A stretch of DNA of 21,312 nt from a virus: IMG/VR virus record IMGVR_UViG_3300043749_000012, positions 1 through 21,312 of that record; one strand, given 5' to 3'. The notes under the pieces were generated by a model, which worked only from the letters and a program-made list of their open reading frames with translations, was not told the origin of the DNA and made no database searches. This document shows, one piece after another, positions 289 through 15,913 of this stretch (the first letter of the stretch is position 1; the number at the start of each line of letters is the position of its first letter). Position numbers and translations under genes: made by a program.

Positions 289-945
289 CTAAATCGCCCC
301 TTTTTTAACTTGAATTCTTACACCTTTTACATTCGCTTTAATTACGTTTGAATCCTCTTTTGGTTTCAAACTTTCCACAAATTTATTAAAATTTTCCGCC
401 TGGAATATCTTAAAAGGATAATCGTCGGCATCGATGCCATAATGATAATCCGATAATATCAGAATATGCGGAAACGGTTGCCTCATGATGCTGGATTCAT
501 ATAAATCCTTATAACGGCCCAATTTATCATCCATTTGTTTTTCAGAATAAACGGTTCTTTGAACCTCTATAAAAAACCGGGTTTTACGGTATTCACAATA
601 TATATCCGGTTCCGGTCCGCCTTTTTTCATGTATTTAGGTTCAACCAAAAACGCGTCCATGTTGCCCAATTTATCAACATTTTTGTAAACGTTCAAGATT
701 GCTAAAAAATGATTAATTTTTGCTGAATCTTTTTTAATTTTCGTTTCCGGGCCGAAATAAACAAATGGATTAAACATTGTTGATCGTTCAATTAACCCAT
801 CGCGGTATAATCGCAGCAAAACATTGTTGGCGGCCAAATTAGGGTTTTTTAAGCTGCTAAAAAATAACTCCCCTATGGAATCCCTATCCATCACACGAAA
901 TTTATTCAAGGCATCAATAATTTTTTTATCCCTGGGTTTTAACAT
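289..945 (-). CDS. Replication-relaxation family protein (wHTH + PD-(D/E)XK-like)
   Basis: A protein of about 218 residues. The N-terminal third (LKPRDKKIIDALNKF, then a second helix and the basic RLYRDGLIER) reads as a winged helix-turn-helix DNA-binding domain. The middle holds PEPDIYCEYRKTRFFIEVQ, with the Pro-Asp, a beta hairpin and then E-V-Q spacing of a PD-(D/E)XK-like nuclease fold, here with Q in place of the usual K. This matches the layout of the replication-relaxation family (PF13814) of plasmids and Firmicutes phages. Two in-frame ATGs exist (957 and 945). AAGGGG directly abuts the first, leaving about 12 bases to the second, so I prefer 945; the longer form would be 222 residues. 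It overlaps the end of the FtsK-like gene by about 20 bases, implying translational coupling. Whether it cuts, nicks or only binds DNA is not shown. Confidence 0.8.
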   Translation of the reverse strand: MLKPRDKKIIDALNKFRVMDRDSIGELFFSSLKNPNLAANNVLLRLYRDGLIERSTMFNPFVYFGPETKIKKDSAKINHFLAILNVYKNVDKLGNMDAFLVEPKYMKKGGPEPDIYCEYRKTRFFIEVQRTVYSEKQMDDKLGRYKDLYESSIMRQPFPHILILSDYHYGIDADDYPFKIFQAENFNKFVESLKPKEDSNVIKANVKGVRIQVKKGAI

Positions 946-2086
946 CGTTGAAAACATCCCCTTCGGTTATTTGCTTCGGTTCCGGCGGCGGCGGATCCGA
1001 AACATTTTTGACCGGGTTTTTCATCACGTAAAAAGGGTTTAATAATTCCTTCGCCTTATCCATTTTCAAATATGGGGCCTGTAAACTTTGGATCTTTTTT
1101 GCATTCATGATGAAATATCCGGAATCCTCAATCTTTTCCGCGCCTGGTGTGTTAACCATGTTCGATTCTATTTTATCCCGCAATTGGAACCCCATTGAAA
1201 CGGTACATTGTGAACGGATAGTTGTATCTAAGGTTTTCGCATTTGGCCGCTGCATCGATAGCAAAACGAAAACGCCCAATGTTCGCCCAACGCAAACTAT
1301 ATCAATCAAAACGGCCATAATGTCATCGTTGTTTCGCAGCAAAACAAATTCATCGATGCAAACAACGATATATGGCTTTTTATGTTCCGGCGGTAAGTCG
1401 TCAATATGTCCAACCTCGTACATTTCAGTTAAATCGGATCGGTTATCCATTTCAACTTTGATTTTGTTTAACATCCGTTCAATATCTTTTGGTTTGGTAT
1501 GAACGCATTTAACATGTTCAACCCGCTTGAAAATATGGAATTCGGATTTTTTGCAATCGCCCATATACAATTCCAATTCGTTCGGCCGTTTGGTTAAAAT
1601 CCAGGTTGTAACGATGGATCGAATTTGCGTACTTTTTCCGGATCCGGTTTCCCCCGCAATTAAAATATGCGGTTGTTCGGTTAAATCAATCGAAATTAAA
1701 TTTCCGTTTGGATCTGCCCCGCATATAACGCCCAATTTGGCCCCGTGTAACGATTTTTTTATTTCGTTAATGGAATATACCAAATCATCATTTTCGTTTG
1801 GATCCCGCGGTTTTTTAACGGACAAAACAAATGTTTTGGATCCGCCATCCAAATCGATGGATTCCCCAAAAATTTGTTCAAAAACATAAAATTTCTTTTT
1901 CATCAAACCCGGATCCACACCAACCGGAACCGAAAAAACATATTGAATGGCTTTTTTTCTGTCCTGGATCCGATGGATTTTTGGATATATGCGGCGCTTA
2001 TCCTCGCCAATTTCTTTGTATATCCCGGCATTGTCAAAAACTTTAACTAACTTTTTTCGATGCATTAACGTTTGAAGAAAATTCAT
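926..2086 (-). CDS. FtsK/SpoIIIE-family DNA translocase-like ATPase
   Basis: 386 residues. Walker A is GETGSGKST (about residues 145-153), Walker B is IVVCIDEF (about 240-247), followed by a conserved LSMQRP segment (about 277-282) typical of FtsK/SpoIIIE/TraG-like motors. It has neither the N-terminal membrane domain nor the C-terminal gamma domain of chromosomal FtsK, so it is a soluble motor core with a short N-terminal region and a proline-rich tail. The start is ATG at 2086: its SD (GAGGTGG, 5 bases upstream) and the ATGA overlap with the preceding small membrane-protein gene decide this over a GTG three codons upstream that lies within the SD. Probably moves or couples double-stranded DNA; its neighbours (small membrane protein, replication-relaxation protein) suggest plasmid-like replication, segregation or transfer. 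The actual substrate is unknown. Confidence 0.88.
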   Translation of the reverse strand: MNFLQTLMHRKKLVKVFDNAGIYKEIGEDKRRIYPKIHRIQDRKKAIQYVFSVPVGVDPGLMKKKFYVFEQIFGESIDLDGGSKTFVLSVKKPRDPNENDDLVYSINEIKKSLHGAKLGVICGADPNGNLISIDLTEQPHILIAGETGSGKSTQIRSIVTTWILTKRPNELELYMGDCKKSEFHIFKRVEHVKCVHTKPKDIERMLNKIKVEMDNRSDLTEMYEVGHIDDLPPEHKKPYIVVCIDEFVLLRNNDDIMAVLIDIVCVGRTLGVFVLLSMQRPNAKTLDTTIRSQCTVSMGFQLRDKIESNMVNTPGAEKIEDSGYFIMNAKKIQSLQAPYLKMDKAKELLNPFYVMKNPVKNVSDPPPPEPKQITEGDVFNDVKTQG

Positions 2087-2268
2087 CTTAACCACCTCAA
2101 CATTGGGTTATGAGTTAAAAAATAAGCAGCAAACCCTAAACCAACTAAAGGAATAATTAACCGGGTTGCGGTTCCTAACCAATGGATCCCGGTTTGATCC
2201 GCAATTTTCTCAACAATAGCAGCAACAACAACGCCCCCGGCGGAAATAATTAAGCCTGTCGAAAACAT
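2083..2268 (-). CDS. Small two-span membrane protein
   Basis: 61 residues. The start is ATG at 2268, preceded by AAGGGGG with 7-base spacing; a longer reading from 2325 has no comparable SD and overlaps the upstream gene. Hydrophobic segments at about residues 2-19 (FSTGLIISAGGVVVAAIV) and 34-51 (TRLIIPLVGLGFAAYFL) suggest two membrane spans joined by a short charged loop. It overlaps the FtsK-like start by ATGA, so the two are translationally coupled. Because the FtsK-like motor lacks its own membrane domain, this protein is a candidate membrane anchor or partner for it; that is inference from position only. No named family recognised. Confidence 0.75.
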   Translation of the reverse strand: MFSTGLIISAGGVVVAAIVEKIADQTGIHWLGTATRLIIPLVGLGFAAYFLTHNPMLRWLR

Positions 2269-5980: not shown

Positions 5981-7954
5981 TTATACACTTGCTCCTGTAG
6001 CATCAACCCACGAAGCAGATTGCCCAGCAGTTGTTATAGTAAAAGTAGCAGTTACCCCTGTCGTACCTGTATCTGTAAAAGTTGGTGTAGTATTTGTTCC
6101 TGTTGATATTTTATTAAATGTTACAGTTGAACCGCTTAATTGTGTGTACCAGTTTGGATAAGAACCTGCACTTATTTTAGAAGCTACTGTGATTGTAGAA
6201 TCTCCAGCAGAAACAGCTATAACAGTGTTCGCACCATTCAAATTAATTGTTATATTGCCTGAAGTTGTTGCACTATGAGTTACATTTAATGTATCTGCTT
6301 CTTTAATAGGTACTGTTTTAGCATAGACTGGTTTACCTAACGTTGTATCGAAAAATGGTTGACCTATATAAGCTGGGGCTGGTCTATTAGCTGTAATGCC
6401 GTTTTGTTTTTTATGACCGTAGTTACCATGTACGTAGACATTAGCTGAATTTGGACTAATATTCATTGGAGTTGTGATATATTTATCCTCAATGTAAACA
6501 TCCAAATAAATATCATAAGATGAATAGTCAACGCTGACCCCTTGCCATTGGTTAGGACGAGAACCCATTAAATAGTTGCCGATAATTCCTGAGAACTTAA
6601 CCCCATATGAACCATTTTTCATTGTCAATCCTGTTTGCTGATAGTTAGCACTTCCTGTAATACCACATGCATCTATAATGACATTGTTAAAAACGCTATA
6701 GTATGCACCCTCCAATGTAACCCCATCATTATAGTTATCTTGAATATCAATATTAGAATAAAAATTGTGTGAACTGAATTTTTCATAAAGAGTGGCATAA
6801 GAAGATTGAGCTAAATTATTACCATTGTTATACCATTTTCCACCTGTAAAGATATTGCTTCCTCCTGATTGATGAAAAACAGCTCCTTGTAAACAAAGGG
6901 TTATATCTATTCCATAAAAAGCGTTATCTGTACCATGAAAGTTATAAATTCCATATTGATTACAACTTTCAATTTTGATAAAACGCAATTGGGATATCCA
7001 TACAGGGTAAGGTTGACCGTTAATATAAATACCACTTAATGAAGCGTTTTTTATAACAACGTGAGTGATCTTTAATTGTCTCGGATAATCTAATCCCGGT
7101 TGATTAGTATTTGTAATTGTAACGGCATTACCATTACTATTATTTGCTTTATTAGCATCAATCGTCATATTAGTAACACCAGAATAGGATGCTTGATTAA
7201 ATGTAATGAAATCTTTATTTCTACCGTTATTTAATTTTAAAATTGTTACATTTTCACCGGCACCATTCAATATAACATTAGGCGGTACCGAAATTTCATT
7301 GGTAAGATAAGTGCCTTTAGGTAAATAAACCGTTCCACCACCATTTAGAATAGCTTTATTAATAGCATTTTGAATGGCAGTTGTATCATCCGTTACTCCA
7401 TCACCTTGAGCTATATAATCCACTTTCGCATCTACCCATGCGTTACCTATTCGCGACGTATTTTGCGCCAATTGTGCATTAACTTCATTAATTCCACCTT
7501 TAATATCTTTGGCCGTTGTTGTCAATGTAGCTGTACCCAACAATGGCGATAATGAATTATCACTTTGCAATGCTTGTTCACTTGTTAATGATTTTTGTAC
7601 ATAAAAGTAAAACGGTTGTGTTTCAATTGTGGTCGTTCCGTTTTGAATTTTAACCGCGCCTTTTACCTTGCCTGGATAAGTTAAAGTTTGTGTATTTAAG
7701 GAAACACTAATTTTCCCATTAACCATATCTGTTATAGTCAAACCGCTTGTTGTATCCTGATAAACGATGGTTCCGTCATCTTTTTGAAAAAATAAAGAAA
7801 CCGTCGAATTGGTTAAATTATAGACGGTTTCATCTTGGGTTATATTTATATTTAAAATCGCGGTATTTATATCACCTTGGTTATATAAGGGTTTTTCGTC
7901 ATTGTTGCCCACAATTTTATCTTTTATATCAACATTTATCGTGAATTGTTTCAA
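5981..7954 (-). CDS. BppU-type baseplate protein with pectate-lyase-fold receptor-binding domain
   Basis: 657 residues. Residues 1-125 fit BppU_N (PF10651): a beta-sandwich beginning FTINVDIKDKIVG, with VSLFFQKDDGTIVYQ and the closing PFYFYVQKSL. A short linker is followed from about 173 by DAKVDYIAQGDGVTDDTTAI, the start of a Pectate_lyase_3 right-handed beta-helix (PF12708), which runs to about 510. The end holds ITANRPAPAYIGQPFFDTTL and an Ig-like Thr-rich domain closing with WVDATG. It is the likely tail spike that binds or degrades host surface glycans. The start is TTG with AAGGGGTG 6 bases upstream; no ATG is nearby. Base composition and codon use change near 7430, at the linker, as in a domain exchange. 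Confidence 0.88.
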   Translation of the reverse strand: MKQFTINVDIKDKIVGNNDEKPLYNQGDINTAILNINITQDETVYNLTNSTVSLFFQKDDGTIVYQDTTSGLTITDMVNGKISVSLNTQTLTYPGKVKGAVKIQNGTTTIETQPFYFYVQKSLTSEQALQSDNSLSPLLGTATLTTTAKDIKGGINEVNAQLAQNTSRIGNAWVDAKVDYIAQGDGVTDDTTAIQNAINKAILNGGGTVYLPKGTYLTNEISVPPNVILNGAGENVTILKLNNGRNKDFITFNQASYSGVTNMTIDANKANNSNGNAVTITNTNQPGLDYPRQLKITHVVIKNASLSGIYINGQPYPVWISQLRFIKIESCNQYGIYNFHGTDNAFYGIDITLCLQGAVFHQSGGSNIFTGGKWYNNGNNLAQSSYATLYEKFSSHNFYSNIDIQDNYNDGVTLEGAYYSVFNNVIIDACGITGSANYQQTGLTMKNGSYGVKFSGIIGNYLMGSRPNQWQGVSVDYSSYDIYLDVYIEDKYITTPMNISPNSANVYVHGNYGHKKQNGITANRPAPAYIGQPFFDTTLGKPVYAKTVPIKEADTLNVTHSATTSGNITINLNGANTVIAVSAGDSTITVASKISAGSYPNWYTQLSGSTVTFNKISTGTNTTPTFTDTGTTGVTATFTITTAGQSASWVDATGASV

Positions 7955-7959
7955 TTAAT

Positions 7960-8196
7960 TCACCCCTTAAAAATTGCATCGCTGCCCTGGTCTGGTTCAA
8001 TGGCTTTAATGCAATGATCTTTTTGAAAAAGATTTAAAAATTTACATAATAAATTGCATACGGGGCATTTATCATGATTGGCCAAATGTTTTCCCAACCT
8101 GGACGAAATTGTTTCTTGCGGATCTCCGAAAAACAATAATGTATTCGCCAATTGGTCGATGGCTATCAATACATTCCAAATATATTTTTTTACCAT
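7960..8196 (-). CDS. Small conserved phage protein, 78 aa
   Basis: 78 residues: KKYIWNVLIAIDQLANTLL, then GDPQETISSRLGKH, a C-P-V-C-N-L-L-C segment, and FQKDHCIKAIE. The IDQLxNTLL-x-GDPxETxSSR pattern and the late DHC are shared by many small phage proteins found among tail and lysis genes in both Gram-positive and Gram-negative phages; their function is unknown to me. The first 20 residues are amphipathic or membrane-touching. The cysteines (three close together plus one in DHC) and histidines could bind metal. It overlaps the DUF4376-type gene by 7 bases and its stop lies within the leader of the TTG-initiated receptor-binding gene. Confidence 0.72.
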   Translation of the reverse strand: MVKKYIWNVLIAIDQLANTLLFFGDPQETISSRLGKHLANHDKCPVCNLLCKFLNLFQKDHCIKAIEPDQGSDAIFKG

Positions 8197-8708
8197 GTTA
8201 TCGCATCCAATGTCGGTTCGTCCTGGGCATTTGCAACATCGTTTTTTTTGCCATTTAACTTAGCAATTTGATTATCGCCCCATGTATGTCCATCAATAAA
8301 AACTTGCTGAAACTGAATTTTATTATGCGGTAAATATCCGGCATCAACCGTTTTATATTGAACTGTTGTAAAATTAGGATCGATATTGAATCGATGCAAT
8401 GTAGAATTGAACCATACCTCATCGATTAACATAGATTGATAGGTATGTTTAACCCCCAACGCATACGAATCGAAACCGCCCAAAATAGCAGCATCGCATT
8501 GTTGTTCCAATTGTTTAATCTTTTGTTCCCTGGAATAATCCAAACCATGATCGTTCCAATATTTTTCAACATCCGCGTTTAACGGTTTCGGATCTTGTAA
8601 ATTCCATTTTGATATTTCCCAACTGCCATCCGGGTATAAAATAACCTCGGTATTATCATTATTTGCATTGGGAACCATCTTGTACAAGGCCCATACTATT
8701 TGTGCCAC
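8190..8708 (-). CDS. DUF4376-type tail fibre-associated protein
   Basis: 172 residues, starting at a GTG with AAGGGGGG about 7 bases upstream. The N-terminal 50 residues form a small beta domain (TEVILYPDGSWEISKW). The rest fits DUF4376 (PF14301): a helix LEQQCDAAILGGFDSYALG, then HTYQSMLIDEVWFNSTL, ending with the helix-plus-AITW tail typical of the family. Such proteins lie next to receptor-binding genes and are thought to be tail-fibre components or assembly helpers. Gene order fits: the jelly-roll baseplate gene is 16 bases upstream and the receptor-binding gene follows after one small gene. Confidence 0.7.
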   Translation of the reverse strand: MAQIVWALYKMVPNANNDNTEVILYPDGSWEISKWNLQDPKPLNADVEKYWNDHGLDYSREQKIKQLEQQCDAAILGGFDSYALGVKHTYQSMLIDEVWFNSTLHRFNIDPNFTTVQYKTVDAGYLPHNKIQFQQVFIDGHTWGDNQIAKLNGKKNDVANAQDEPTLDAITW

Positions 8709-10783: not shown

Positions 10784-11638
10784 TCAAGCCCCCCAATATC
10801 GATTTGTATAGACTAATTGGACGGCTGATTGGGTCGTTGCATTCTGCATTTGGATTTGAATGTTGTTTGCCCCCTGAATGAAATTCCATAAACTTGAACC
10901 GTTAGCCATATAGGAAAATAAATTGGTTCCATCGTTTTTCGTAATGCTTTTAAATCCTGGCCTTGTGTCCACTGTTATATATTCACCAACGCCCAACGAA
11001 TAGTTAATATTTAGTGAATCACCGGTTGTTAGGTTGTTTAAATAAATAGTGTCACCTGGCCCCATGATTGTCCATATTGGCCATGTTTCAACATCGCCGT
11101 TATTTGTTACGGTTGCCCCCGAAAAGACGGTTGATGATGTTAATTTTAACGGCAACATCGGGAAAAACGTTGGCGGCGTTCCGGTTGTGTATGTAGTTAT
11201 AACCGGATTCGCATCATACCAAAACGGATCGAATGCCTTTAAAACTAACGTTGATTTAATCCAGGTCATCCCGGTTTCTTGCACCTCTAAGCCCGATTGA
11301 TAACGACAATTTAACAACCTGGTCGTTCCATCTTCGGCGACAACTTTTAGTTGTCCATCGCCTTTTAATGGATTGAACCAATTCAATGTATTCCGCAAAA
11401 CATTTCTTAAATCGGATGTCGACAACGCGGTTATTTCAATAGGCAAATCAATCTCACGCGATTTAACTGCAATGTTGCGCAAAACGGAACCCGGCAATAG
11501 TGGAACTTGTTGGTCGGTAATATCGAATTGGGGCATAAAACGCCCGGTTGCTCCTAATGCAACATCAATATTCGCGGAACCGGATAAATCATGTTCCACG
11601 CCGCTTGAATCAATGAAAGATATATATTCTTTAGACAT
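10784..11638 (-). CDS. Distal tail protein (Dit-like)
   Basis: 284 residues, resembling siphovirus distal tail proteins (phage tail family). The N-terminal half has VLRNIAVKSREIDLPIEI, followed by the helix DLRNVLRNTLNWFNPLKGDG and the strand LKVVAEDGTTRLLNCRY, which is characteristic. SGLEVQETGMTWIKSTLVLKAFDPFWYD ends the first domain. The C-terminal half (TNNGDVETWPIWTIMGPGD to the end) is a galectin-like beta domain. It joins the tail tube to the hub. Its position between tape measure and gp37-like genes fits. The ATG lies inside the last codons of the tape measure gene with GGAGAG 8 bases upstream. Confidence 0.85.
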   Translation of the reverse strand: MSKEYISFIDSSGVEHDLSGSANIDVALGATGRFMPQFDITDQQVPLLPGSVLRNIAVKSREIDLPIEITALSTSDLRNVLRNTLNWFNPLKGDGQLKVVAEDGTTRLLNCRYQSGLEVQETGMTWIKSTLVLKAFDPFWYDANPVITTYTTGTPPTFFPMLPLKLTSSTVFSGATVTNNGDVETWPIWTIMGPGDTIYLNNLTTGDSLNINYSLGVGEYITVDTRPGFKSITKNDGTNLFSYMANGSSLWNFIQGANNIQIQMQNATTQSAVQLVYTNRYWGA

Positions 11639-14291
11639 GGTTCAATCTCTCCATTCTTTGCAGCGCGCGAACTAAATCACTTTCGTTCATATCGGCGGTT
11701 AATGTATTAACGGTTACGTTGTATGTTTTGTGACTTCCGCCTAATAACTTATTTGTTTCACTATTGGTTTTAATCTGCGAACCTCTAGGAACATACATTA
11801 ATTCGGGGCCGTTTTCTCCAACCATAGCTAGCCCACCTGGGGCAAAATCCGTTCCGGCTGCATAACCAACATAACCGCCGCCATTCATCATATTTTTGAT
11901 CCCTGGAACGTTAAAGATATTCCCGTAACGCGCTTGAATATAGCGGATCCCCGCAATAGCATTTTGAATAGGGTTTAGTATGTTGGTCATTCCTGGCATG
12001 GCATAGGCCGCCATTGTGGACGGTATAAGCTGCATTAATCCTTGTGACGGATGGCCCGCTTTCGCATTAGAATCCCAATTGTTTATTGCGCTTGGATCGC
12101 CGCCCGATTCATGTTGAACCATCGTTGATAATGGCCCCAACCATGAAGAAGGAACGCCCGTTGCCGCCATTGCGGATTGTAGCCATGTTGTTACATTCCC
12201 CGATACGCTGCCGCCGCCAAATGCGCCCGATACAAACCCCTTAATTTTATCAACTGTATTCATAATTCCGCCGCCGAAATCTTTAAAAACCGACTTCCCT
12301 AAATCTAGTAAATTACCACTCGATAAACCGTTAATTAAACCGTCTAGAATATGGCCGCCCATTTCATAGAAAACTTTTGAAGGAGAATTAATGCCCAATG
12401 TTTTCTTGAATTGTTTTAATAATTCATTTGCTAGGCCCATAATTCCGTCTGTTACCCAATGGATACCATCGGAAATGCCGTTTGCGATTCCTTGTGGAAT
12501 GTTTTTGGCTGCATCGATTAATTCTCCAAATTTTGCTTTTCCTTGGTCAACTATTTTCGCAAACCATGTTCCCACGTCATCAACGAATAACCGCAAACCG
12601 CTTGTTATTTCTGACCAACCGCCCGAAAATAGTTCCTTGATTAAACCGAAAAACCCGCCGACTCCTTTTAGCACTTTGCCGATAAACATCAAATTGATAA
12701 TGTTCCAAATCGCCTCAACCGCGCCGCTTAAAATATCCTTGATACCCGTCCATAATAGGCCCCAATTGCCTGTAAATATGGCGGTAAAAACTAGGATAAC
12801 GCCCTGGATAATTTTTATGGCCCCTTCGATAACGCCCTTGATGTTATCCCATACGGATTGAATAATAAAAAGTAAAACAGGGGCTAAGACTTTAAAAATG
12901 GTTGCTAAAACGGCAAAAAAGTTTTGGACGGCCTGGGTAATCTGCCCGCCGTATTGATTCCAAAATTTTACAATTTGAGAAAATTGATCGCCAATGAATT
13001 TAACAATATCCTGTAAAATCGGCATCGCGATGGCTTTCACGGTATTGAACATAGATATGAATGAATCGGCAATATTCCCTTTACCTTTGAATAATCCCGT
13101 ATAGAAGTTAACAACATCGTTAAAATAACCGACAATGTTTGTTTTTAACGTGATTAAGGTATCAAGTATCATTTTTATAGCGGGGCCACTTAACCCTAAT
13201 TTGGTTAATATTTCTACGGCCTGGATGTTTTTGCCTTGCATAATATCAAAGACGGCCTCTAATGCGGGTTTAATATCGCCGATAACTTTTTTAATCGTGG
13301 TTTGGATCGTATAAAATGTATTTCCAACGGCCGCGCCGAATGTTCCAATACCCGTTTGCATCGGCCCGAAACCGTTTGTAAATCCTTCTTTTGCACCCTG
13401 GAAAAAATCCTTAATGGTTTTTGTTACACCTGGCCCGAATGCTCCATTCAAAGAAGCATAAACAGAATCCATATCGCCTTTCGCTAATGCTGGCAATGCG
13501 TCCATTATCGGCATAAATGCCCTTAACCCTTTTTCCATCGTTTCGAACAATGGTTTGGATAATTGGCCCGCTAAAATAGACCAATCATCTTTCAAGGTAG
13601 ACATCATACCCGTAAAGGTTGCCGCCTGTTTTGCACTTGATCCCTTAACGGAATCGGCGACACTATCGAATGCTTTATTGTAAATATCGGCCGAAATTTT
13701 GCCCTCTGATGCCATTTTACGAACGGCCCCAACGTTTGTATGCAATTCCGCCGCAATTGCCTTGAATATTGGAATACCTTGGTTTTGAAGTATATCTAAA
13801 TCCGCCGTATATGCTACTTGTGCCTGGTCAACCTGTGACATTTGGCGAACCATTTCTTTCGCATTATCGGCCGTAATATTAAACGCCCCTGACACATCCG
13901 CAACCCTGGTCAATTGGTCAAATAAATCTTGACCCGCATAACCCGCGTTGTTTAAGTATTTGGCCATCGCATCAACGCCCTCGGTGTCAAATTGCGTGTT
14001 TTTGGCAAATGTCGCAATATCTTGTATTTGTTTTTTCGCTTTTTCCTGGGAACCTAGCAACGTTGTCCATGCAACGGTTGAATTTTCTACCATTTGATTG
14101 TAATCAATACCCGTTTTTGCGATATAGCCCCCAATGGTTGCAATCGCGCCGGCAATTAATGTTTTTGCGCTCAATAGGCCGCCAACAAACTTGTTACTAC
14201 TTTCGTTCATGGTTCCAAATGCTTCGCGGACTGCATCGGATGCCTGATCCCTTGCGGATAGGATAATTTCAACCGTATTTCTTCCCGCCAT
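11631..14291 (-). CDS. Tape measure protein with lytic transglycosylase domain
   Basis: 886 residues. The N-terminal part (residues 1-240) matches a tape measure domain (PF20155-like: VDAMAKYLNNAGYAGQDLFD, QMSQVDQAQVAYTADLDILQ and GIPIFKAIAAEL). A long central region has hydrophobic helices (about 330-620). From about 703 to 800 is an SLT-type lytic transglycosylase domain: Glu728 in QHESGGDP as the catalytic acid, followed by SQGLMQLIPSTMAAY and a late GIRYIQARYG. It sets tail length and probably cleaves peptidoglycan during DNA entry. About 880 residues would suggest a tail near 130 nm at 0.15 nm per residue. The ATG has AGGGGGTGA upstream. It follows the frameshifted chaperone, the standard order. 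Confidence 0.93.
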   Translation of the reverse strand: MAGRNTVEIILSARDQASDAVREAFGTMNESSNKFVGGLLSAKTLIAGAIATIGGYIAKTGIDYNQMVENSTVAWTTLLGSQEKAKKQIQDIATFAKNTQFDTEGVDAMAKYLNNAGYAGQDLFDQLTRVADVSGAFNITADNAKEMVRQMSQVDQAQVAYTADLDILQNQGIPIFKAIAAELHTNVGAVRKMASEGKISADIYNKAFDSVADSVKGSSAKQAATFTGMMSTLKDDWSILAGQLSKPLFETMEKGLRAFMPIMDALPALAKGDMDSVYASLNGAFGPGVTKTIKDFFQGAKEGFTNGFGPMQTGIGTFGAAVGNTFYTIQTTIKKVIGDIKPALEAVFDIMQGKNIQAVEILTKLGLSGPAIKMILDTLITLKTNIVGYFNDVVNFYTGLFKGKGNIADSFISMFNTVKAIAMPILQDIVKFIGDQFSQIVKFWNQYGGQITQAVQNFFAVLATIFKVLAPVLLFIIQSVWDNIKGVIEGAIKIIQGVILVFTAIFTGNWGLLWTGIKDILSGAVEAIWNIINLMFIGKVLKGVGGFFGLIKELFSGGWSEITSGLRLFVDDVGTWFAKIVDQGKAKFGELIDAAKNIPQGIANGISDGIHWVTDGIMGLANELLKQFKKTLGINSPSKVFYEMGGHILDGLINGLSSGNLLDLGKSVFKDFGGGIMNTVDKIKGFVSGAFGGGSVSGNVTTWLQSAMAATGVPSSWLGPLSTMVQHESGGDPSAINNWDSNAKAGHPSQGLMQLIPSTMAAYAMPGMTNILNPIQNAIAGIRYIQARYGNIFNVPGIKNMMNGGGYVGYAAGTDFAPGGLAMVGENGPELMYVPRGSQIKTNSETNKLLGGSHKTYNVTVNTLTADMNESDLVRALQRMERLNHV

Positions 14292-14307: not shown

Positions 14308-14879
14308 CTATTTTGGTTGGTTTGCGTTGTATTGATTTATGATGGATTGAATTAGTTCAAACGCTTCAATCCATCGGCCTGGTTGGTCAAAATAACCGCC
14401 ATCAAATGGCAAACAATGAAATTCTTTACACATATTAAAAACCTTTACGAATTCGTTGGAATATCTGCCGTTTCCCATCATTTGAGAAACGGCGGATATT
14501 AGTTTTTTCTTTCAACCTCTGTTAATTGATTCATAGAATCAACTTTAGCAAGGATTTTCATAAAAACAGATTCATCTAATTCTTTAACCGTTTGTTCGGT
14601 TATTGGTTCCGGCGAACTCCATTTAATAATTGCTTTCGAAACCTTATAATGTTGAATTTCTAACATTTTGCCTGATGATCCGATTAACTCGGCGGGAATA
14701 TCGTCGTCGGTTTTTGCGTTTTGAATGGCGCGGATCGCATTTGGCCCCGCATCGGCAAACGCTGAAATAGTACGGCCTTTGATTTCGTCTAAAATACCTT
14801 TAGAAAGATGTTGTAATTCTACGTAATCCTCGCCGCCTAATTTAATTTGTTCGGTTGGTTTGTTTTTAGCAAATAACAT
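14308..14879 (-). CDS. Tail assembly chaperone, -1 frameshift fusion product (gpGT-like)
   Basis: The 126-residue chaperone frame can shift by -1 at A AAA AAC (14502-14508), two bases before its stop, and continue for 64 codons to TAG at 14308-14310, giving about 190 residues. The extension (LISAVSQMMGNGRYSNEFV to the end QYNANQPK) has no start of its own with an SD, is free of stops and fills the gap before the tape measure gene. This is the gpG/gpGT arrangement known in lambda and many siphoviruses, where a low ratio of long to short form is needed for tail assembly. The mature reading frame uses both frames; coordinates give the outer limits. Confidence 0.88.
14467..14508 (-). promoter_or_regulatory. 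Programmed -1 ribosomal frameshift signal
   Basis: The slippery heptamer A AAA AAC is in the correct phase (AGA AAA AAC). Eight bases later begins a perfect 8-bp stem, GCCGTTTC with GAAACGGC, around an 11-base loop. A lower stem (AATATC with GATATT) can add 6 bp across one C-A mismatch. Heptamer, spacer and stem are all in standard form. Confidence 0.9.
14499..14879 (-). CDS. Tail assembly chaperone, short form (gpG-like)
   Basis: 126 residues: a strand-rich beginning (EQIKLGGEDYVELQHLS), then mostly helices, ending LTEVERKN at TAA. No catalytic motif. It lies between tail tube and tape measure genes, where the gpG-type chaperone, which coats the tape measure during tail assembly, is expected. 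The ATG has AGGGG about 9 bases upstream. Most ribosomes should stop here; a fraction shift to make the longer form. Assignment rests on gene order, size and the frameshift signal rather than on recognised sequence similarity. Confidence 0.88.
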   Translation of the reverse strand: MLFAKNKPTEQIKLGGEDYVELQHLSKGILDEIKGRTISAFADAGPNAIRAIQNAKTDDDIPAELIGSSGKMLEIQHYKVSKAIIKWSSPEPITEQTVKELDESVFMKILAKVDSMNQLTEVERKN

Positions 14880-14941: not shown

Positions 14942-15913
14942 TTAATAAGCTGTTTTATTGTTAATTAAAGTGAATTTTGCCGCGCATGCTGCCGCCGGAT
15001 CGTATTCGCACCATCCATCTAAAACGGCCGTAACAACGCCCGCGCCGCTTACATTTATCGGGAATGCGTTAAAATGGAATTTCGTTGCATCCAATTGGAA
15101 CGTGTAATTGTAAGTTGTCGCGATTACTGCCCCAACTAATTTAACTTGTAAAGGAACCTCATTTTGAGCAACAAATAGGTTAAATTCGGTTAAATCTTGC
15201 AGTTCAATGGTTAATTTAACCGGGAATGTCCTTTTTCCGTTGCGTAAAATACGGTTAATATTCCTTGTTCCGTCTAATGTCGGACGGGCATCTAATGAGT
15301 TTTTAACGCCGATTTCAACGGATGAAACGTTTGTATTTACAACACTATTTAACGTTACGGTTGCCATATTCCAGGTGAATGCGTCTTGAACATCAAATGT
15401 CGGCGTTGTTTTTGTGATATTTGTGTATGATTTGGCCAACATTGCAGCTTTACAAGTTAAAATCTTTTTATCCACACCAAAATTGAAATCTAATTCGTTT
15501 GCAATCGCTCCTGTGTATTGAAAAGCGTTCGCGGATCCCAAATCGCGGTTTACCTCTAGCGTGTAACTTGGTAATGCTGCATTTGTTGCAAAGTTTGCTT
15601 GCGATGGTGTGAAAACGTGCTGATAAGCAGGCCCCGCACCCTGGATTGTGCTAACTGGCGCGCCCACTGCTGATCGCAAAAAGTTTCCAACTATATTCGG
15701 GTAAACATCAAAAGAAACATCCCCCGCAATGGTTGTCATTCCCTGGTAGTATGGGGCTTCATCAACAACCCCGTTGTTAACGTCGGATTTCACTTGTTCA
15801 ATAGATTGGTTAATAGTTTCGGATGCAAAACGGACATAATCCGTTGCGGCAACTGGCGTTCCAAATGTGGTTTCTTTTGCCATTCCGACATGTGATAATG
15901 CTCCAATAGCCAT
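14942..15913 (-). CDS. Major tail tube protein
   Basis: 323 residues. It begins GALSHVGMAKETTFGTPVAA, the typical opening of Phage_tube_2-like tail tube proteins (PF18906), followed by DVSFDVYPNIVGNFLRSAVG, ELDFNFGVDKKILTCKAAML and a second half with ELQDLTEFNLFVAQNE, consistent with two halves of a duplicated tube fold. It is larger than many tube proteins (150-200), matching the longer two-domain group. It should be among the most expressed proteins. The ATG has GGGGG at 9 bases and overlaps the stop of the 45-codon gene (TAATG). The chaperone gene follows after 62 bases. Confidence 0.88.
   Translation of the reverse strand: MAIGALSHVGMAKETTFGTPVAATDYVRFASETINQSIEQVKSDVNNGVVDEAPYYQGMTTIAGDVSFDVYPNIVGNFLRSAVGAPVSTIQGAGPAYQHVFTPSQANFATNAALPSYTLEVNRDLGSANAFQYTGAIANELDFNFGVDKKILTCKAAMLAKSYTNITKTTPTFDVQDAFTWNMATVTLNSVVNTNVSSVEIGVKNSLDARPTLDGTRNINRILRNGKRTFPVKLTIELQDLTEFNLFVAQNEVPLQVKLVGAVIATTYNYTFQLDATKFHFNAFPINVSGAGVVTAVLDGWCEYDPAAACAAKFTLINNKTAY

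Follow-up and report, generated by a model that had tools for sequence, protein, structure and literature searches.

In phage lambda, most ribosomes produce the protein G, and a minority the longer G-T; the partner of G is the tape measure protein, and that of T the tail tube protein (Levin 1993; Xu 2004, 2013, 2014; reviewed in PMC5009743). In -1 frameshift signals, the hairpin usually lies 5–8 nt past the slippery heptamer (PMC4066793), and in E. coli the heptamer A_AAA_AAC is less shifty than A_AAA_AAG (PMC5009743). Here, we describe a signal that very probably directs -1 programmed ribosomal frameshifting of the same kind as in lambda gpG/gpGT, with a hairpin as its stimulator. It was found in the window, by which we mean the whole stretch of DNA analyzed, the 21,312 bases of IMG/VR virus record IMGVR_UViG_3300043749_000012. 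As in lambda, the gene concerned lies between those for the tail tube and the tape measure protein, the predicted -1 slip is near the end of G, the T domain ends close to the tape measure start, and the two predicted products share one N-terminus.

On its minus strand, the window carries a cluster of head and tail genes, for portal, prohead protease, capsid, connector, tail tube, tape measure, Dit-like and tip proteins. The order around the signal is tail tube, G, T, tape measure, anchored by the Pfam Phage_tube_2 match upstream and the TMP_3 and PHROG 167 matches downstream (Table 1). Several other genes of the window are worth recording. The tape measure protein (11631-14291, minus strand) has an SLT transglycosylase domain near its C-terminus, and a receptor-binding-like protein (5981-7954, minus strand) combines a BppU N-terminal domain with a pectate-lyase-like region. 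At 289-2095 (minus strand), a Replication-relaxation family protein adjoins an FtsK/SpoIIIE-like ATPase, a pair expected more in plasmids and conjugative elements.

G is homologous to seven other proteins that occupy the same gene position, and it has no sequence match to a curated family in Pfam or PHROG. Its AlphaFold model (pLDDT 77), compared with a viral structure library, has tail assembly chaperones among its closest named matches, with a probability of about 1.00 but E values of 0.003–0.04 and a TM score of about 0.5. The model has no fold match in the PDB, and sequence and fold searches of the PDB returned nothing meaningful. T is predicted to form a compact helical domain (pLDDT 87). 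In three of the eight members of the family described below, T weakly matches phrog_9001, 'tail assembly chaperone' (best E 0.0023); the T domain of the window is not one of these three.

Table 1. Features of the putative frameshift locus and its flanking genes (window coordinates)
Feature	Position	Strand	Basis
Tail tube protein gene, upstream of the chaperone gene	14942..15913	-	Pfam Phage_tube_2, E 3.5e-23
Zero-frame gene, tail assembly chaperone (gpG-like, G), 126 aa, C-terminus ...VERKN-stop	14499..14879	-	ORF
Slippery heptamer A_AAA_AAC, in phase (X_XXY_YYZ type)	14502..14508	-	Sequence; invariant in 8/8 distinct homologous loci
Zero-frame stop TAA, first 3 nt of the 8-nt spacer	14499..14501	-	Sequence
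Lower stem AAUAUC/GAUAUU enclosing the hairpin, window-specific	14460..14500	-	MFE fold
Stimulatory hairpin (putative), 8-bp core stem GCCGUUUC/GAAACGGC, 11-nt loop	14467..14493	-	Fold; covariation
-1 frame extension (T-like domain), 64 codons + TAG	14308..14502	-	Translation
Tape measure protein gene	11631..14291	-	PHROG 167, E 2e-61; Pfam TMP_3 and SLT

On the minus strand, the 3′ end of the chaperone gene reads GAA AGA AAA AAC TAA. An earlier note, made from the sequence alone, had placed an in-phase A_AAA_AAC two bases before the zero-frame stop; the heptamer is indeed in phase, but no bases separate AAC from TAA. Read from the last heptamer base, the -1 frame continues for 64 codons before a TAG at 14310-14308, 16 nt from the tape measure ATG (14291), as the note had it. 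The spacer between heptamer and stem (14501-14494) is 8 nt long, within the published range of 5–8 nt (PMC4066793). By itself, AAAAAAC is not rare in the window (15 occurrences versus about 18 expected). What sets this copy apart is the structure downstream: among 41 in-phase slippery heptamers in the genes of the window, only the one at 14508-14502 has a strong stem after it; the runner-up among nearby stems has 7 pairs with a single G-C. The local MFE here is -19, a value that none of the other 40 approaches. Long open -1 frames beyond gene ends also arise through overlap with the next gene. For example, the gene at 8190-8708 (minus strand) has an in-phase A_AAA_AAC at 8247-8241 and a -1 frame of 95 codons running through the ORF at 7960-8196, with no stem; this is probably an ordinary gene overlap.

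The perfect 8-bp stem and 11-base loop, beginning 8 bases after the heptamer, that the note described are present in the window sequence and in its predicted fold. Three further pairs (UCA/UGG) can form within the loop, which would lengthen the stem to 11 bp and leave a loop of 5 nt. The local fold has a free energy of -23.6 kcal/mol (z = -5.25), and none of 200 shuffled sequences was as stable. No described RNA family was matched in the window by Rfam. A possible 6-bp lower stem had also been suggested. Its pairs can form in the window, where a C/A mismatch sets them off from the upper stem. In the relatives 71% of its cells are paired, and it is not a conserved element. Moreover, since the lower stem begins 1 nt past the heptamer, it would have to be open with a ribosome on the heptamer, and it is probably not part of the stimulator.

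The signal set comprises eight distinct sequences: the window and loci L003, L009, L010, L013, L016, L017 and L024. Of the relatives, the first four are from IMG/VR, L016 is from Mesobacillus subterraneus, L017 from Bacillus sp. 03113 and L024 from a genome in a search of the same class; the sources outside IMG/VR are Bacillota genomes. One further contig (L002) has a signal and G protein identical to those of the window, and L024 is apparently the same prophage as L025. Identity to the window across the seven diverged relatives is 35–66% for G and 40–82% for the extension. In an alignment made without fitting to structure, the heptamer, 8-nt spacer, 8-bp stem and 11-nt loop align gap-free in all eight loci, while the stem sequences themselves vary (e.g., GCCGUUUC/GAAACGGC, GCGAUUAC/GUAAUCGC, GCGAUCUC/GAGGUCGU). 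All 64 core pair cells are paired, as are 97.7% of 88 cells when the inner pairs are included, and two-sided compensatory changes occur at four of the eight core pairs (10 cells). Slid-partner controls gave 35–58% pairing; shuffle counts cannot be used as probabilities here, because the sequences are related. RNAalifold recovered the same hairpin unaided. The comparison of heptamer and stem among related phages that the earlier note had called for thus came out in favor of a tail chaperone frameshift: each locus keeps the heptamer and the geometry, with compensatory changes in the stem, and the -1 frame is open in every one. The zero-frame stop is at the same place in seven loci and 7 codons later in L024. 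In the Mesobacillus prophage (L016:5986-6046), the base of the hairpin is extended (AGUC/GACU), and the fold is the most stable of the set (-29 kcal/mol).

The extension itself appears to be translated. Between the window and L003, dN is 0.127 and dS 0.75 (identity 82% in the extension, 66% in G); other pairs have dN of about 0.2–0.26 with dS of about 1.5 or saturated. Across seven pairs, dN in the -1 frame of the extension lies far under dS, which indicates that this reading is under purifying selection, i.e., protein-coding. Because the hairpin sits inside this coding sequence, the protein could in principle impose it. As a control, each sequence was recoded with synonymous codons, keeping its own -1 protein, and 1000 recoded versions were folded. 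The recoded sequences keep on average 4.8–5.8 of the 8 pairs, with all 8 retained in 0.6–4.5% of trials per sequence, and the native folds are stronger than at least 98.5% of the 1000 recoded versions. Silent bases track their partners: the third base of an Ala codon (column 18) is C or G and in every case matches column 40. Between the window and L003, silent divergence reaches its minimum at the signal, with pS of 0.145 in the first 14 extension codons versus 0.61 in the rest. Judged from these comparisons, the hairpin is under selection at the RNA level, beyond that on the -1 protein.

What else might such a hairpin do? In six of the eight loci, a U-rich tract follows on its 3′ side, and in three of them (L009:3006-3040, L010:3009-3037, L013:1521-1549) it scores as an intrinsic terminator, within coding sequence immediately ahead of the tape measure gene. 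With the U-rich tract in place, a terminator role fits these three loci by scan, and some relatives could use the hairpin for termination as well. The hairpin might then do two jobs in this phage group, promoting the -1 frameshift and partially ending transcription where the U-rich tract follows, so that tape measure mRNA would be lowered relative to chaperone mRNA. Such an arrangement is plausible in Bacillus if transcription outpaces translation; overall, we consider it unlikely. It is very unlikely, despite the scores in L009, L010 and L013, that the main function of the hairpin is to terminate or attenuate transcription between the genes for the chaperone and the tape measure protein. In the window and L003 the tract is absent (AGAUAU...), and for the window a terminator role was rejected, as its hairpin is not called a terminator and no U run follows it. 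In the relatives, the U run codes for Ser-Phe-Ser within T. A terminator would also leave the heptamer, the spacing and the -1 coding unexplained.

The open -1 frame could also be read as a separate gene for T with an internal start, e.g., at the tandem codons AUG AUG that the loop of the window hairpin holds in the -1 frame; an in-frame AUG is found in seven of the eight loci. We give this explanation very little credence. L024 has AAA in place of the loop AUG, and the loop AUGs lie inside a stable hairpin with no Shine-Dalgarno sequence upstream. The -1 frame is, moreover, open and similar from the loop AUG back to the heptamer, whose invariance an internal start does not explain. It is equally improbable that RNA polymerase slips on the A run and yields mixed mRNAs, with the hairpin incidental. 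The run at the site is 6 A (7 in L013 and L017), which is short for transcriptional slippage; runs of at least about 9 A or T are usually needed for that process. In every case a C comes after the run, as the heptamer A_AAA_AAC demands, and the fixed 8-nt spacing and covarying hairpin fit a ribosome-directed element. Finally, the idea that one gene was split by a sequencing error or recent indel at the homopolymer, the apparent signal being due to chance, can practically be dismissed, since independent contigs and isolate genomes share the split, to the base, with covariation.

In the ribosomal frameshift that we favor, most ribosomes would decode AAA AAC and terminate at UAA, yielding the 126-aa chaperone G. 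The hairpin, 8 nt downstream at the mRNA entry, would hold a minority of them with tRNA-Lys and tRNA-Asn on A_AAA_AAC; both tRNAs would then re-pair one base back, on AAA AAA, and the shifted ribosomes would continue for 64 codons to produce a 190-aa G-T fusion. By analogy to lambda, G would coat the tape measure protein and the T part would recruit the tail tube protein, such that the ratio of G to G-T set by the signal would support tail assembly. We infer the slippage, its frequency and the roles of the products from sequence. Efficiency may be low, because A_AAA_AAC is weaker than A_AAA_AAG in E. coli, and the weak heptamer may be the reason that a strong hairpin is kept.

Beyond the eight loci, the picture broadens. 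In a more distant locus, L044, A_AAA_AAC is kept, with a different, longer predicted hairpin about 4 nt downstream (L044:1610-1689, minus strand; fold z -4.5), as if the stimulator had been replaced or remodelled. In the distant T-domain loci examined, T is always in the -1 frame relative to the upstream ORF, and in most a slippery heptamer lies close to the ORF stop. These distant loci indicate that -1 placement of the T domain is the general arrangement, and that the 8-bp/11-nt geometry is confined to one clade. No relatives of gpG or T came from searching the phage and plasmid collections directly with DNA and protein. Thermoanaerobacterium phage THSA-485A has a related tail tube protein, but no A_AAA_AAC was seen on reading the downstream ORF in the chaperone position, and this phage was set aside. 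Bacillota samples searched with protein profiles and the RNA model contained few carriers, so the set remains at eight distinct signals. A covariance model of the signal (R1) can retrieve it by search. These results would bring a diverged chaperone family with no curated Pfam match into the G/G-T frameshift class, and place a stimulatory hairpin with covariation support in phages of Bacillus-like hosts. The 64-codon T domain, meanwhile, will escape gene callers.

Among known systems, lambda differs from the window in its heptamer (G_GGA_AAG versus A_AAA_AAC). The window further departs from lambda in that the zero-frame stop abuts the heptamer, in its covarying hairpin at a fixed spacing of 8 nt, and in a G protein with no recognized sequence similarity to curated families. 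SPP1, like the window, has a tail chaperone pair with a putative -1 slip (gp17.5/gp17.5*) in a Bacillus siphovirus; its slip site, however, is UUUUUUC and its extension much longer, with products of 173 and 297 aa, and the parts of the account consulted do not mention a stimulatory hairpin (PMC6316719). The g-t genes of haloarchaeal virus HCTV-2 have A_AAA_AAC in the same kind of gene (PMC5009743); its host is archaeal, unlike those of the window group, and the likeness is one of heptamer and gene kind. Signals of the IS3-family and dnaX type resemble that of the window in having a slippery heptamer and a hairpin 5–8 nt downstream, whereas their products are a transposase or DNA polymerase subunit rather than a tail chaperone (PMC4066793). 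Unlike these signals, those of the window group have no conserved Shine-Dalgarno-like element, an optional stimulator in such signals, that we could see upstream; by inspection, AGAGG precedes the heptamer in the window and L024, and L003, L009 and L017 are without such a motif. The class to which the window signal is assigned is thus well known; what is new is a stimulatory hairpin backed by covariation in an otherwise unannotated chaperone family.
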